Positions 56,601-63,419 of a stretch of DNA of 64,000 nucleotides are shown here, piece after piece. The position numbers and the translations under genes were made by a program. The notes under the pieces were generated by a model, which saw nothing but the letters and a program-made list of their open reading frames with translations, was not told the DNA's origin and did not search any database. Each line of letters opens with the position of its first letter. The stretch's first letter is position 1. This stretch comes from Lachnospiraceae bacterium (GTDB lineage: Bacteria; Bacillota; Clostridia; Lachnospirales; Lachnospiraceae). Where the stretch lies: positions 1 to 64,000 of the forward strand of contig JAFRYA010000037.1 of assembly GCA_017441295.1 (NCBI GenBank). Direction: 5' to 3'.

Positions 56601-57137
56601 ATGAAAAAAATGGCAGTTATAAATTTATGTCTGTGCGGAGTAATGATAGCGCTTCATATAGTGCTGGAGTTGTTCTGCGCGATCAGAATCGGCAATGATT
56701 ACAAGATTACTTTCGCGACACTGCCGTTTATTATCATTGCGCTTCTGTGCGGCCCTGTTGAAGGATTGGCAACAGGCCTTTTGGGTACTTTGCTGAGTCA
56801 GCTTCTGACATTTGGCTGGACGCAGTCCACACCGTTCTGGATCATTCCTGGCGCGCTGTGCGGACTGGTAGCCGGCCTGGTTTATAAGATCTTCAAGAGG
56901 AAACCTAATTTCGTCCCGATAATGGTCAGCGTTGTCATATCGATGTTTGTTTTCATTGTCTTCAACTGGATAGCCAGCTACTTCGATGGAGTAGTTATCT
57001 ATAAGTATATGACAATGGAAGCTCTGCTTGCGCTGATACCTGTCAGGGTATTAATAGGCGTAGGTCTGATGATCATCTATACTGCGGTGTCCATACCGCT
57101 ATGCAAGGCACTGCGGGGCAGGATCAAAGGTATCTAA
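56601..57137 (+). CDS. ECF transporter S component
   Basis: 178 residues from ATG 56601 (SD GAGGT); a TTG at 56583 is less likely. Six hydrophobic segments. The pattern FATLPFIIIALLCGPVEGL and the following glycine-rich GLLGTLLSQ resemble FolT-type substrate-binding (S) subunits of energy-coupling-factor transporters for vitamins. The ligand is uncertain; folate, a queuosine precursor or pantothenate types look alike at this level. The shared EcfA/A'/T module is not in the window. A perfect palindrome ATAAAAT-C-ATTTTAT lies about 30 bases upstream. Confidence 0.82.
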   Translation: MKKMAVINLCLCGVMIALHIVLELFCAIRIGNDYKITFATLPFIIIALLCGPVEGLATGLLGTLLSQLLTFGWTQSTPFWIIPGALCGLVAGLVYKIFKRKPNFVPIMVSVVISMFVFIVFNWIASYFDGVVIYKYMTMEALLALIPVRVLIGVGLMIIYTAVSIPLCKALRGRIKGI

Positions 57138-57178: not shown

Positions 57179-58192
57179 TTACAGTATATCCATCGCGGCA
57201 TTAAATCCATCTTTGATAGCCGGGCCGATCTGGCCGACTTCCTTGCAGTCACCGATGATGTAAACCTTTGTCCCTGCGAGAGCGTCTTCATATTCCTTAG
57301 TCGGATTAGACTCCATACCTAAAGCGAATACTACTGTGTCAGCAGGAATCTTCTCTACAGAACCATCCTGATGCTTAACCGTTACACCGTCCTTCTCAAT
57401 CCTGGTGCAGAGGGTGTTGATATGACTCTTAATGCCTGCAGCTTCAACATGCTCGAGCATTTCTCGTCTTTCACGTCCGCAGCCTTCATGCGCCAGTCTG
57501 ATGCCCATTTCAATGATTGTGACGTTATGTCCGGTATTTGCCAGATGCAGGCCGGTCTCGGTGCCTACCAGACCGCCTCCGACCATGACGATGTTCTTGC
57601 CGAGCTGTGTCTCAGGCTGATAAACATCCAGTGCAGGAACAGCGTTCTCCAGGCCCTCAATCGGGATTCTCTTCTCATGTGATCCGATAGCCAGAATAAC
57701 TACATCCGCACCGAGAGCCTTGACTTCTTCAGGGCTCAGTCTCTTGCCGAAATGGAAGGTTACTCCCTTGCGCTCAGCTTCGATAGCCAGCGTCTTAGTA
57801 AGCAGCGAAATATCGCCCTTATTTACATCTATATCAGCGAAGAGGAGAGTGCCGCCCGCTTTATCGTGGTCATCGTACAAATCGACTTTATGGCCCCTTT
57901 CCGCGGCTGTAATGGCAGCCTGCAGTCCTGCAGGGCCTCCGCCTATTATTGCGACCTTTCTGGCAGCCTCAGGCTTTGGATATTCAGACAGGGTCTTTTC
58001 GAGATTAGCCAATGGGTTGATAGTGCAGTTGCCTACCTTGAGCCATGGCATAATGCCGTCAAATGGTACGTTCTGCTCAGGGTCAGGGAACGTAATGCAT
58101 TTGCCGCAGCCGATGCACTGGCGGATTTCATCCTCACGTCCGGTTGCCAGTTTATTAATGAATTCAGGATCGGCTATCTGCTGGCGGCCCAT
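57179..58192 (-). CDS. FAD/NAD oxidoreductase, C-terminal half of a gene split by an in-frame stop
   Basis: 337 codons from the ATG at 58192. It holds the C-terminal half of an Old-Yellow-Enzyme/2,4-dienoyl-CoA-reductase-like flavoprotein: the iron-sulfur motif CIGCGKC with a fourth Cys in GNCTINP, then FAD site IIGGGPAGLQAA and NAD site MVGGGLVGTETG. The frame is continuous with the upstream half (58229-59290) through 12 sense codons, QFLAEGKCDYIV, and a single TAA at 58229-58231. The intact paralogue at 59355-61463 reads straight through. Either this half is untranslated or it is made by reinitiation; no well-placed SD is seen. Confidence 0.8.
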   Translation of the reverse strand: MGRQQIADPEFINKLATGREDEIRQCIGCGKCITFPDPEQNVPFDGIMPWLKVGNCTINPLANLEKTLSEYPKPEAARKVAIIGGGPAGLQAAITAAERGHKVDLYDDHDKAGGTLLFADIDVNKGDISLLTKTLAIEAERKGVTFHFGKRLSPEEVKALGADVVILAIGSHEKRIPIEGLENAVPALDVYQPETQLGKNIVMVGGGLVGTETGLHLANTGHNVTIIEMGIRLAHEGCGRERREMLEHVEAAGIKSHINTLCTRIEKDGVTVKHQDGSVEKIPADTVVFALGMESNPTKEYEDALAGTKVYIIGDCKEVGQIGPAIKDGFNAAMDIL

Positions 58193-58228
58193 TACGATAT
58201 AGTCGCATTTTCCTTCAGCCAGGAATTG

Positions 58229-59290
58229 TTAAGCCATTTCAGGGCTGGTGATATGGCCGATGATGCCGACCTTGATGCCCTTTGTGTGCTGTTTGACATA
58301 CTCAACCATTTTGATGTTGTAGCCCTTAGGCCCGAAAATGCCGTGGCTGACAGCTGACTCACTTGTTACACCGCCATAAGTACCGGATGAGATATGAACG
58401 GCATTAATAATGCCTTCGCATCTTTTAAGGAACTCGGTTGTTTCTTCAATCTCAACACCGCCTTCAGTGCCTTCACGGCCGCTGACACGGATCTCAATAA
58501 TGAAATCAGGTCCTACAGCCTCACGCATTTCCCTGAGGATTCTTACAGGGAACTTGCATCTGTTCTCGATGCTGCCGCCGTATTCATCAGTTCTCTTGTT
58601 GAAGTTAGGTGAGAGGAACTGTGTGAACAGGAAACCATGTCCGGCGTGAATGCACACACCATCAAATCCTGCTTCTTTCATATAAAGCGCGGCAGTGGCG
58701 AAGTCGTTGCAGATTGAGTCCATCATGCTCTCATCAATCTCGATGATCGTGCCGCCTTCTGGCGTTGTGCCTGCGCTCGGTCCCCAGATCTCAGTGCCCG
58801 GGATAGGTGGCTTGACTGAGCCCGGATGGCAGAGCTCGTGCAGGGCGATGGCACCGTGACGCTTGATCCTCCATGCGTATTCGCTGATAGCATTGAATGC
58901 TTCGCCTTCAGTAACTGTGAAATCCACCTCCGGCAGAGGCATTCTCTTGGCATCCAGGTTATTGATGTCTATTTCACCGACACTGACCATGGCAGTGCCG
59001 CCGGCTGCAGGCATCTCCAGTTTGGAATATTTGCCGGGAGCGTATGCCGCATTGCCGTATTCATTGCCAACAACAGCGGAACCAAATACCATTGGCGCGC
59101 ACATTATCCTGTTTTTCATTGTATATTTCTCGGTCAGTTTAAGAGGGGAAAAGATGTGCGGATATTTAGCGCATGTCTGAGGGATTTCAGCCTTAGGCTG
59201 CGGTTTGGGACTTCTGTGAGTCCTGACTTCGGCACCCTGAATATCGTCAAATAATTCAGAACGGATGCCGCCTAACTCTCTTTTCTGCAT
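58229..59290 (-). CDS. NADH:flavin oxidoreductase (OYE-like), N-terminal half of a gene split by an in-frame stop
   Basis: 353 residues from ATG at 59290, with GGAGGT upstream. It is the FMN-binding TIM barrel: MCAPMV, HGAIALHELCHPG, CIHAGHGFLFTQFLSP and TDEYGGSIENRCKFP, up to GHITSPEMA and a TAA stop. Aligning with the paralogue, the TAA replaces a Glu codon (GAA to TAA would be one change). Together both halves would give 703 residues against 702 for the neighbour. The truncated barrel lacks its last strand, so the gene is probably a fresh pseudogene unless the stop is an assembly error. The family includes dienoyl-CoA, enoate, bile-acid (BaiCD/BaiH) and bilirubin reductases. Confidence 0.82.
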   Translation of the reverse strand: MQKRELGGIRSELFDDIQGAEVRTHRSPKPQPKAEIPQTCAKYPHIFSPLKLTEKYTMKNRIMCAPMVFGSAVVGNEYGNAAYAPGKYSKLEMPAAGGTAMVSVGEIDINNLDAKRMPLPEVDFTVTEGEAFNAISEYAWRIKRHGAIALHELCHPGSVKPPIPGTEIWGPSAGTTPEGGTIIEIDESMMDSICNDFATAALYMKEAGFDGVCIHAGHGFLFTQFLSPNFNKRTDEYGGSIENRCKFPVRILREMREAVGPDFIIEIRVSGREGTEGGVEIEETTEFLKRCEGIINAVHISSGTYGGVTSESAVSHGIFGPKGYNIKMVEYVKQHTKGIKVGIIGHITSPEMA

Positions 59291-59354: not shown

Positions 59355-61463
59355 TTATAAAATGTTCATTGCAGTCTTGAAGCCTTCTTTAACAGCAGGT
59401 CCGATGGTTGCAACTTTCTCGCAGTCACCGATTACATAAACCGGAGTGTCGCCGAGTGCAGCCTTGAATTCTTCAGTGCTGTTGGACTCGAGGCCAAGAG
59501 CAAAGATAACTGTATCAGCCGGAAGCTTTTCAACAGAGCCGTCCTGATGCTTAACTGTTACGCCGTCTTTCTCAATCTTGGTGCAGAGTGTGTTAACGTG
59601 CATCTTGACGTTGTTTGTCTCAAGGAAGAGGATAAGCTCACGCCTGTATGAACCACATGCTTCATGAGCGATTCTGATGCCCATCTCAACGAGTGTAACG
59701 TCGTGACCTGTCTTTGCCAGATGCAGACCAACTTCTGCGCCAACTAAGCCGCCGCCGACCATAACGATTTTCTTGCCGAGCTTGGTGTCTGGCTGGTAAA
59801 CATCCATAGCCGGGATAGCATTCTCAAGGCCTTCAATCGGGAATCTCTTCTCATGTGCGCCAACAGCCAGGATGACATCGTCAGCGCCCATAGCCTTAAC
59901 TTCTTCAGGAGTAACCTTCTTGCCAAGGTGGAACTTAACGCCCAGTCTGGTAGCCTCTGTGATAAGAGCATCCTTGAAGTTCTTGATGTCTGTCTTGTCA
60001 ACGTCAACTTCAGTGAAGAGCAGAGTGCCGCCCAGTTTTTCATGATCGTCATAGAGGTCAACCTGATGTCCTCTTTCAGCTGCAGTGATAGCTGCCTGCA
60101 GGCCTGCAGGGCCGCCGCCCACGATAACAACCTTTCTGGAGCCTTCAGGTACCGGATACTCGTCATCAGTCATGCATTCATTAGCTCGTGGGTTGATGGA
60201 GCAGTTACCTGCCTTAAGCCATGGCATTACGCCGTCGAATGGAACCTTCTGCTCAGGATCCGGGAACTCGAGGCATTTGCTGCATCCGATGCACTGACGG
60301 ATTTCTTTCTCACGTCCGGTCATGAGCTTGTTGATATATTCAGGATCAGCAATCTGCTGACGTCCCATAACTACGTAGTCAACCATTCCCTTTGCAATGA
60401 TTTCTTCTACCATGTCAGGGCTGGTGATGTGGCCGAGAACACCAACGATAAGGTTGGTATGTTTCTTAACATATTCAGCCATCTTGATATTGTAGCCGTG
60501 CTGTGCCAGAACGCATGTGGCCATATCTGTGCTGTTGAAGATAGCGCCGTATGTTCCCCTGGAAATATGAACGCTGGTGATGATGCCTTCGCACATCTTA
60601 AGGAATTCAGTGGTTTCTTCGATCTCAATGCCGCCTTCTGATCCTTCGCGTCCAGATACACGGAGCTCGATAATGAAGTCAGGTCCTACAGCTTCACGGA
60701 TCTCTCTGAGGATACGAACAGGGAATTTGCTTCTGTTCTCAATGCTGCCGCCGTATTCATCAGTTCTCTTGTTGAAGTTAGGTGAGAGGAACTGTGTGAA
60801 CAGGAAGCCGTGGCCGCCGTGGATGCATACGCCGTCAAAGCCTGCAGCCTTGCAGTACAGAGCTGCGTTGACGAAGTCGTTGCAGATGGAGTCCATCATG
60901 CTCTCATCAATCTCAAGGATTGGAGCGCCTTCAGGTGTTGTACCTGCTGAAGGTCCCCATACTTCGGTGCCAGGGATCGGAGGCTTAGCTGTACCGCAAT
61001 GGCAGAGCTCCTGAAGAGCGATAGCGCCATGACGTTTGATCCTCCATGCGTACTCACTGATAGCGTTGAAAGCTTCACCTGAACGAACGTTGAAATCAAC
61101 ATCCGGAAGAGGCAGTCTCTTGGAATCCAGCATGTTAACGTTTAACTCGCCAACTGTAACCATAGCAGTGCCGCCTTTGGCAGGTGCTTCAATCTTGTTA
61201 TACTTTGCTGGTGCATGTGCAGCGTTATTGTACTGATTTCCTACAACTGCTGTACAGAAAACCATAGGTGCGCACATGATACGGTTCTTCATGGTAAACT
61301 TATCATTAAGCTTTAATGGGCTTAAGATATGTGGGTATCTGTCAGATGTCTGAACAACTTCTTTAAGAGGTTCAGGCTTCGGGCTCCTGTGGGTACGGAC
61401 TTCACTATGCCCCATGCTGTCAAGCAATTCGGATGATACTCCAAGTAATTGTCTTTTTGCCAT
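59355..61463 (-). CDS. NADH:flavin oxidoreductase / FAD-dependent oxidoreductase, OYE plus FAD/NAD domains
   Basis: 702 residues. Residues 45-380 are an FMN TIM barrel (CAPMVFCTAVVG; FTQFLSPNFNKRTDEYGGS at 223-240). Cys391, Cys394, Cys397 and Cys421 make an iron-sulfur site, with a 23-residue gap before the last Cys where dienoyl-CoA reductases have about 11 or 12. The FAD site GGGPAG is at 449-454 and an NAD(P) site VMVGGGLVGAEVG near 565. This is the architecture of 2,4-dienoyl-CoA reductase, BaiCD/BaiH and related enoate reductases. The substrate is unknown. AAGGAGGAT precedes the start. Its tandem copy downstream is broken. Confidence 0.88.
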   Translation of the reverse strand: MAKRQLLGVSSELLDSMGHSEVRTHRSPKPEPLKEVVQTSDRYPHILSPLKLNDKFTMKNRIMCAPMVFCTAVVGNQYNNAAHAPAKYNKIEAPAKGGTAMVTVGELNVNMLDSKRLPLPDVDFNVRSGEAFNAISEYAWRIKRHGAIALQELCHCGTAKPPIPGTEVWGPSAGTTPEGAPILEIDESMMDSICNDFVNAALYCKAAGFDGVCIHGGHGFLFTQFLSPNFNKRTDEYGGSIENRSKFPVRILREIREAVGPDFIIELRVSGREGSEGGIEIEETTEFLKMCEGIITSVHISRGTYGAIFNSTDMATCVLAQHGYNIKMAEYVKKHTNLIVGVLGHITSPDMVEEIIAKGMVDYVVMGRQQIADPEYINKLMTGREKEIRQCIGCSKCLEFPDPEQKVPFDGVMPWLKAGNCSINPRANECMTDDEYPVPEGSRKVVIVGGGPAGLQAAITAAERGHQVDLYDDHEKLGGTLLFTEVDVDKTDIKNFKDALITEATRLGVKFHLGKKVTPEEVKAMGADDVILAVGAHEKRFPIEGLENAIPAMDVYQPDTKLGKKIVMVGGGLVGAEVGLHLAKTGHDVTLVEMGIRIAHEACGSYRRELILFLETNNVKMHVNTLCTKIEKDGVTVKHQDGSVEKLPADTVIFALGLESNSTEEFKAALGDTPVYVIGDCEKVATIGPAVKEGFKTAMNIL

Positions 61464-61605: not shown

Positions 61606-61644
61606 TGATTTTTAAGTAAACAAAGACAGATAAGAGGTATGTCT

Positions 61645-62922
61645 ATGGAGAAAAATATAGAAACAAAATGCGTTCAGGCAGGCTATACTCCGAAGAATGG
61701 AGAACCGCGTCAGATCCCGATAATTCAGAGCACTACTTTCAAGTATGACAACAGCGAGTTCATGGGCAAGCTGTTTGATCTGGAAGAGAGCGGATACTTT
61801 TACAGCAGACTGCAGAATCCAACCTGTGACGCTGTAGCGGAGAAGATATGCCGGATGGAAGGCGGAGAGGCTGCAGTACTGACCGGTTCAGGACAGGCAG
61901 CGAACTTTTACGCAATATTTAATATCTGCGAAGCCGGTGATCATTTTATTGCGTCATCGTCTATTTACGGAGGCACATACAACCTGTTCGGTGTCACCAT
62001 GAAGAAGATGGGCATCGAGTGCACCTTCGTGGATCAGACACTGCCGAAAGAAGAGCTGGCTAAATTCTTCAGGCCTAACACCAAATGCTTATTTGGAGAG
62101 ACGCTGACCAATCCGAATGTAAATGTTCTGGATTTTGAAAAGTTCGCGTCACTGGCTCATGAGCACGGCGTTCCTTTTATCGTAGACAATACCTTTGCGA
62201 CCCCGATCAACTGCAGACCTTTCGAGTTCGGAGCGGACATAGTTGTCCATTCAACCACTAAGTATATGGATGGACACGCTGCCACAATAGGAGGTGTTAT
62301 TGTGGACAGCGGCAATTTTGACTGGATGGCCCATAAGGATAAATATCCGGGCCTTTGCACACCGGACGAATCTTATCATGGAATTATCTACGCCGAGCGT
62401 TTTGGCAGGAAGGCATATATTACCAAAGCAGTTGCCCAGCTTATGAGAGACCTGGGCAGCGTCCAGTCACCTCAGAACGCCTTCTACCTGAATCTGGGGC
62501 TGGAATCACTTCATGTCCGCATGCCTAAACACTGCGAAAACGCGCTTAAAGTGGCCAAATATTTAAGAGATCATGAGAAAATAGCATGGGTTAAATATCC
62601 GGGGCTTGAAACTGACCCTGAACATGCTATGGCAATGAAATATATGCCGAACGGCACCACAGGAGTACTGTGCTTTGGCATAAAAGGCGACAGAGAAGAT
62701 GCGGAAAAGTTCATGGACAATCTGAAACTGGCATTTATTGAGACACACGTTTCTGATTCACACACATGTCTTTTGCATCCTGCCAGCCATACACACAGGC
62801 AGATGAGCGATGAACAGCTGAAGGCTGCAGGTGTTGCGCCTGACCTTATCAGGTTCTCATGCGGCCTGGAAAACGCAGAAGACATAATCGCTGATCTGGA
62901 GCAGGCACTGGCTCTTATTTAA
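61645..62922 (+). CDS. O-acetylhomoserine aminocarboxypropyltransferase (sulfhydrylase), PLP enzyme
   Basis: 425 residues from ATG 61645 (AGAGG seven bases upstream; ATG 61639 is too close). A Cys/Met-metabolism PLP enzyme: the phosphate-binding SGQAANF, the aromatic YGGTYNLF, the FIVDNTFATP loop and the Schiff-base lysine in HSTTKYMDGH are present. The length of about 425 favours MetY-type O-acetylhomoserine sulfhydrylase over cystathionine lyases, but methionine gamma-lyase is a possible alternative. A GcvH-like gene follows after 75 bases without a terminator. Confidence 0.88.
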   Translation: MEKNIETKCVQAGYTPKNGEPRQIPIIQSTTFKYDNSEFMGKLFDLEESGYFYSRLQNPTCDAVAEKICRMEGGEAAVLTGSGQAANFYAIFNICEAGDHFIASSSIYGGTYNLFGVTMKKMGIECTFVDQTLPKEELAKFFRPNTKCLFGETLTNPNVNVLDFEKFASLAHEHGVPFIVDNTFATPINCRPFEFGADIVVHSTTKYMDGHAATIGGVIVDSGNFDWMAHKDKYPGLCTPDESYHGIIYAERFGRKAYITKAVAQLMRDLGSVQSPQNAFYLNLGLESLHVRMPKHCENALKVAKYLRDHEKIAWVKYPGLETDPEHAMAMKYMPNGTTGVLCFGIKGDREDAEKFMDNLKLAFIETHVSDSHTCLLHPASHTHRQMSDEQLKAAGVAPDLIRFSCGLENAEDIIADLEQALALI

Positions 62923-62954: not shown

Positions 62955-62997
62955 CTGTAATGTAATTAAAAGCTGCATACTAAAAGGAGACTTGATC

Positions 62998-63372
62998 ATG
63001 TATTATCCGGATGACGTTAAGTACAGCAGTGAGCATACATGGGCTCAGATTGAAGGAGATACAGCCAGGATAGGCATCACAGACTTCGGTCAGGAACAGA
63101 TGGGAGATGTGTTATATATTGATTTTCCGAATGTCGGCGTCAATATAGGCGCGGGTGAAGTCCTGCTGGAGATTGAAACATCAGACACCGGCCAGACGGT
63201 ATATAGTCCGCTCAGCGGCGAGATAACCGCAATAAACAGAGACGTGGACGATTCTCCTGAACTTATCAATGAAGATCCCTATGGAGCATGGATAGTTGAA
63301 ATGCTTCTGTCGGATCCTGATGAGGAAGAGGATCTGATGGATGCGGACGAGTATGAAGAATATGTTGAATGA
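62998..63372 (+). CDS. Glycine cleavage H-protein-like, lipoyl lysine missing
   Basis: 124 residues from ATG 62998 (AAGGAGA upstream). The whole fold matches GcvH: KYSSEHTWAQIEGDTARIGI, then FGQEQMGD and SPELINEDPYGAW. The lipoyl hairpin, normally ESVKAASDIY, reads ETSDTGQTVY without a gap, so the lysine that carries lipoate is Asp. The only lysine in the protein is Lys8. The C-terminal tail is extremely acidic. It therefore cannot be a normal lipoylated H protein. No gcvT or gcvP genes are near; the neighbour is a sulfur-transfer PLP enzyme. Its role is unknown. Confidence 0.88.
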   Translation: MYYPDDVKYSSEHTWAQIEGDTARIGITDFGQEQMGDVLYIDFPNVGVNIGAGEVLLEIETSDTGQTVYSPLSGEITAINRDVDDSPELINEDPYGAWIVEMLLSDPDEEEDLMDADEYEEYVE

Positions 63373-63391
63373 TATGTCTTAATAAAAACAG

Positions 63392-63419
63392 AGCCGCCTC
63401 GTTATGAGGCGGCTTTTTC
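63392..63419. terminator. Bidirectional terminator
   Basis: Perfect 9-bp stem AGCCGCCTC (63392-63400) with GAGGCGGCT (63406-63414), loop GTTAT, T run on the plus strand and T-rich tail on the minus strand. Serves the GcvH-like gene and the convergent YdcF-like gene. Confidence 0.93.

Follow-up and report, generated by a model that had tools for sequence, protein, structure and literature searches.

A lysine-less relative of acetogen methyl-branch H proteins beside metY in a Lachnospiraceae genome

Introduction

It is established biochemistry that the role of H proteins as lipoyl carriers needs the lysine of the lipoyl hairpin. H homologues also occur in genomes that are devoid of the remaining glycine cleavage system, an example being not_gcvH (TIGR03077), a chlamydial GcvH-like family. 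GcvH-L, which is encoded in the SirTM operon of Streptococcus and Staphylococcus (structure 5a35), likewise has an H-fold outside glycine cleavage, and it is lipoylated by LplA2 and ADP-ribosylated (PMC5049849). LbpA of sulfur oxidation is derived from GcvH and has a strictly conserved lysine and, in most cases, two cysteines (PMC6067878). In acetogens GcvH and LpdA are encoded in Wood-Ljungdahl gene clusters. The role of GcvH in these clusters has been called unclear (PMC5039349), and in Clostridium autoethanogenum both proteins are synthesized at very high levels with unknown function (PMC9040625). Deletion strains of C. autoethanogenum exist for gcvH (together with acsV) and for lpdA (PMC12723745). 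The literature was searched for an H protein devoid of the lysine, and no description was found.

Here, such a protein is described from a Lachnospiraceae bacterium (genome G000). The window, i.e., the whole stretch of 64,000 nucleotides that was analyzed, corresponds to C19:1-64000; the draft genome comprises 1.99 Mb in 46 contigs and is 90.5% complete. Statements about whole genomes rest on targeted searches.

Results

An H-fold protein with aspartate at the lipoyl position

The gene starts with an ATG at position 62998 and ends with a stop codon at 63370-63372. The following features were assigned to it:

62998..63372, + strand: H-like gene (GcvH-like, 124 aa, Asp63 in place of the lipoyl lysine), from open reading frame, profile and structure
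62984..62991, + strand: ribosome-binding site AAAGGAGA of the H-like gene, from sequence
63166..63201, + strand: former lipoyl hairpin LEIETSDTGQTV, residues 57-68, from residue comparison
63390..63416, + strand: strong intrinsic terminator with a 12-bp stem, 3' of the H-like gene, from motif search

The original prediction of a full-length GcvH-like protein containing the motif SPELINEDPYG was borne out by four approaches. The protein matched Pfam GCV_H over its full length (E=1e-34) and scored 127.8 bits with NCBIfam TIGR00527 gcvH (cut-off 115.9), its AF2 model had a pLDDT of 93.3, and the best PDB match of the predicted structure in Foldseek was 1onl with a TM of 0.94. Both the H-protein fold and the family HMM thus place it among the H proteins. 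The canonical H proteins of Escherichia coli (3ab9) and pea (1htp) matched over the full length as well (TM 0.92-0.94 including 1onl). In contrast to these, the H-like protein has no lipoyl lysine, and no P protein, clear canonical T protein or L protein was found with it.

The hairpin EIETSDTGQTVYSP (E60-T-S-D63-T-G-Q-T-V-Y) aligns without gaps to the consensus ES(V/S)K(A/T)xSxxY, and therefore D63 (codon GAC, 63184-63186) occupies the place of the lipoylated lysine, as had been predicted. Lys8 was also correctly recognized as the sole lysine, and the protein contains no cysteine. An acidic tail had been pointed out in addition; the protein indeed has 33 acidic residues and a pI of about 4, but these values are usual for the GCV_H family, and unusual acidity was rejected as a special feature.

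Across 140 distinct hairpin regions, the lipoyl position was occupied by lysine in 138, by aspartate in the H-like protein and by glutamate in one congener (G009). No further lysine-less member was found among 397 genomes of the family, 392 genomes of the order and the best 80 loci obtained when about 85,000 species genomes were scanned, whereby in all three scans loci were fetched and the residue was read for the best-scoring matches only. Residues were regarded as never seen when they were absent from all 122 lysine-bearing homologues compared. The H-like protein contains nine of these, five of them within residues 57-68 (p=0.0004), and the G009 homologue ten, four of them within this region (p=0.008). 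None of the 122 lysine-bearing proteins has more than two there, the range for those related to the methyl branch being 0-2. Judged from these residues, the lipoyl hairpin of both lysine-less proteins has drifted while the barrel stayed constrained.

Lipoylation and glycine cleavage machinery

The H-like gene is the only GCV_H gene of the source genome, and the search for a second, canonical gcvH, which had been proposed as a check, found none in this 90.5% complete assembly. The P protein domain PF02347 had no match in the source genome (90% complete), and no GDC-P scored above the cut-off in the genus. A single protein with a GCV_T domain is encoded on contig C29, adjoining LysR and TRAP-type genes and without gcv neighbors. 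With these neighbors it was judged unlikely to be a true T protein, and it may be a demethylase.

An LplA-, LipB- or LipM-type ligase was not found in the source genome (90% complete). Its single PF03099 match (C19:65029) lies 1 kb past the window, at a distance of about 1.7 kb from the H-like gene. This match was rejected as a hidden LplA, because it is a BirA-type biotin ligase gene, which is located upstream of a pyruvate carboxylase gene. PF03099 had no match in G009. An acetogen LplA query yielded nothing in G000, G009 and G087, and it matched in G008 and in all four lysine-bearing owners of a methyl-branch cluster. Full-length Lpd was found neither in G000 nor in G009, and a cluster-type LpdA query yielded only partial matches to other flavoproteins in G000. 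The cofactor machinery thus appears to be gone together with the lysine. As the protein has no lysine at this position and no ligase, Lpd or GcvP was detected, it cannot be a lipoyl carrier.

Kinship with H proteins of the methyl branch

The H-like gene occurs in two of the 14 species of the genus. Among 13 congeners a homologue was found only in G009; it is 49.6% identical and has a glutamate at the lysine place. Close relatives with a retained lysine would have pointed to a local mutation or error, an explanation that was rejected, as the sole congener homologue has glutamate and hairpin changes of its own. The nearest kin outside the genus, which are about 44-52% identical, were found in G408, G388 (two copies), G330, G331 and two Eubacteriaceae MAGs. 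They have kept the lysine in a motif E-S-(S/T)-K-T, and, with one exception, the genes are located within fchA-folD-metV-metF-lpdA clusters or at their end, in most cases together with fhs. A lipoate ligase is present in G408, G388, G330 and G331 (4/4).

In the phylogenetic tree the H-like protein and its G009 homologue were placed inside the Wood-Ljungdahl-type clade with a support of 95/91, and of 94/86 when the hairpin columns were omitted. The glycine-cleavage-type H proteins found in gut Clostridia fall outside this clade. By this tree and the gene neighborhoods, the nearest relatives are H proteins encoded in the acetogen methyl-branch cluster (fhs-fchA-folD-metV-metF-lpdA-gcvH) and not those of glycine cleavage, an ancestry that the original prediction had missed. 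Its guess of a one-carbon function gained support, because the kin reside in Wood-Ljungdahl methyl-branch clusters and folT and DHFR genes flank the gene in both carriers.

The protein therefore has to be compared foremost with the acetogen GcvH/LpdA pair (PMC5039349, PMC9040625), with whose methyl-branch-cluster GcvH it shares a tree branch. No GcvP above the cut-off was found in the four cluster-bearing genomes tested, as in the source genome. The acetogen GcvH has a hairpin of the type E-x-S-K-T, from which E60, S62 and T64 are retained in the H-like protein. In contrast to the pair, it has an aspartate instead of the lysine, its gene lies outside a methyl-branch cluster with none of lpdA, metVF, fchA and fhs beside it, and neither a lipoate ligase nor an Lpd was found in the genome.

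GcvH-L has 25% identity with the H-like protein, and no sirtuin, macrodomain or LplA2 gene was recognized among the neighbors, whose ORFs were read by eye. LbpA is a GcvH-derived protein with a link to sulfur metabolism; without a cysteine and a hairpin lysine the H-like protein does not belong to that family. With TIGR03077 it scored 64.1 bits at a cut-off of 144.05 and is not a member.

Two observations were made on other genomes. G388 has two Wood-Ljungdahl-type gcvH genes, one in a full methyl-branch cluster and the other after fhs-fchA only. G087, a 97% complete genome, encodes a Wood-Ljungdahl-type GcvH with the lysine (L141:7022-7396) downstream of nifB-like and homocitrate-synthase-like genes, and neither a ligase nor a full-length Lpd was detected. 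By its gene content, G087 resembles an intermediate stage of loss.

Selection on the barrel

We give about an even chance to the explanation that the H-like protein is a cofactor-free descendant of a Wood-Ljungdahl-type H protein, which would act in folate/one-carbon metabolism as a subunit for docking or regulation. The main rival, which is possible but clearly less probable, is a relic: after the loss of ligase and lipoamide dehydrogenase the gene would be functionless and decaying, and it would be intact by chance. The gene was not found in 12 of the 14 genomes of the genus (several of which are less than 90% complete), and lysine, ligase and dehydrogenase are all missing. In addition, G087 has the lysine and no ligase, as if the loss were stepwise. 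Nonsense codons are already present in two nearby genes (see below), and therefore the region tolerates decay. Judged by sequence identity the gene evolves fast, as expected for a relic: the H-like proteins of the two carriers are 49.6% identical, the MetV and MetF proteins 83-93%; folT and DHFR are as divergent as the H-like gene.

Several results argue against a relic. The open reading frame is intact in both species and is accompanied by a good ribosome-binding site and a terminator in one of them, and the new residues cluster in the hairpin and not in the barrel. The differences between the two lysine-less genes amount to 0.32/0.21/0.69 per codon position, a strong excess at the third position (p=5e-15), and their pN/pS is 0.33, compared to 0.23-0.30 for lysine-bearing pairs. 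Outside the hairpin the barrel is nearly normal: both proteins have kept 22 of the 30 highly conserved columns, compared to 25-27 in the cluster relatives and 21 in G087. These values are in line with a lost lipoyl arm and a barrel that is still under selection, albeit slightly relaxed. They do not prove selection after the loss of the lysine: the sister relation of the two genes is weak (support of 67/81), so that some of the constraint could be older than the loss, and synonymous sites approach saturation.

The folate/methionine locus

Two further genes were assigned in the surroundings of the H-like gene:

61639..62922, + strand: metY, O-acetylhomoserine aminocarboxypropyltransferase (TIGR01326), upstream neighbor, linkage not conserved, from profile and synteny
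56601..57137, + strand: folT-family ECF transporter S component, bounding the folT-metY-DHFR locus of the genus on the left, from profile and synteny

The order folT-metY-DHFR-trpS-gyrB-gyrA-asd, all in one direction, was found in G001, G006 and G012, and in G013 the locus reads folT-metY-DHFR, trpS being located at a greater distance. The H-like gene of the source genome comes after metY; folT lies upstream, and a DHFR gene is located 12 kb downstream, where the contig ends. Its counterpart in G009 is found between an inverted folT and DHFR-trpS-gyrB, i.e., in the slot that is occupied by metY elsewhere. Because the folT/DHFR surroundings are shared, the H-like gene is part of one folate/methionine locus in both species, and metY is not its constant companion.

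The original prediction had suggested a link to the adjoining sulfhydrylase gene, and the H-like protein as a partner of MetY in sulfur transfer or as a scaffold was considered. A gap of 75 bases separates the two genes, which are on the same strand; a search of this gap for promoter and terminator motifs on the + strand was negative, so that cotranscription is plausible, and both belong to one ancestral locus. However, metY is present in 12 of the 14 genomes of the genus, including 11 congeners without the H-like gene, and this synteny led to the rejection of a conserved partnership; the H-like gene lies beside metY only in the source genome. The lysine-less pair does not keep a MetY-type neighbor, for which a check had been proposed, since the G009 gene is flanked by folT and DHFR, and no metY was found in this 66% complete genome. 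Without a cysteine the protein also has no thiol for sulfur transfer. A partnership with MetY is thus improbable. From the idea of a repurposed H-fold, the part that stands is an H-fold unable to carry lipoate, and a special tie to the sulfhydrylase is not supported.

It is very unlikely that lipoate or another group is attached to a different residue, or that a ligase which escaped detection attaches lipoate. A ligase gene could sit in a gap of the 90% complete genome, but two independent ligase searches were negative, the single lysine, Lys8, is distant from the hairpin in sequence, and both carriers have an acidic residue at position 63. A sequencing, assembly or binning artefact is hardly credible in spite of the 46 contigs and isolated TAA codons in two other contig genes, because G009 has a lysine-less homologue with different hairpin changes at a matching locus and the folT-metY synteny of the contig is typical for the genus.

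The two interrupted genes are the following. A BaiCD-like Fe-S flavoenzyme gene (57182-59290, - strand) contains one in-frame TAA at 58229-58231, and it is 72% identical to an intact tandem copy at 59358-61463. Beyond the window lie three tandem methyltransferase-like genes (uroporphyrinogen-decarboxylase type, by eye); the middle one (C19:70305-71303, L207:10306-11304) has an in-frame TAA, and its neighbors are intact.

Discussion

For the cofactor-free descendant, the data support the following history. The ancestor was an H protein of the fhs-fchA-folD-metV-metF-lpdA-gcvH cluster kind with the lipoyl lysine present. In this genus, in the carriers of which neither ligase nor lipoamide dehydrogenase was found, the lysine was replaced by an acidic residue. 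The hairpin, which is read by lipoate ligase and lipoyl partners, drifted, and the beta-barrel was kept by purifying selection. The protein cannot serve as a lipoamide shuttle, be it for an aminomethyl group or for electrons. It would act by shape and charge only, as a small subunit for docking or regulation. Because of kinship and locus, the candidate partner is one that was formerly bound by the lipoylated form, most likely a folate/methyl-branch enzyme, either the MetVF methylene-THF reductase or one of the enzymes encoded in the folT-metY-DHFR locus.

It is tempting to speculate, though tentatively, that the methyl-branch H protein of acetogens itself has a lipoate-independent function in docking or regulating a folate/methyl-branch enzyme, and that only this function survives in this genus, in a natural version with an acidic residue for the lysine and with neither ligase nor dehydrogenase. 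As the role of GcvH and LpdA from acetogen clusters is itself unknown, a natural lysine-less variant is useful. With a relative whose lysine is lost and whose barrel is retained, in a genome in which no ligase or dehydrogenase was found, a role that depends on lipoate could be told from one that does not, and the H-like gene is suited to complementation of an acetogen gcvH deletion.

Both carriers have a three-gene cluster that encodes a 652-aa protein with a MetV-like N-terminus, MetV and MetF. Five congeners without the H-like gene have MetV genes of this cluster type, and therefore the H-like gene is not needed there. The cluster is located at G000:C13 (L235:7744-11240), G009:C41 (L236:7457-10975) and G087:C41 (L237:6958-10490), and MetV genes of this type were found in 8 of the genomes searched. 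The long MetV protein is possibly an unusual subunit of methylene-THF reductase.
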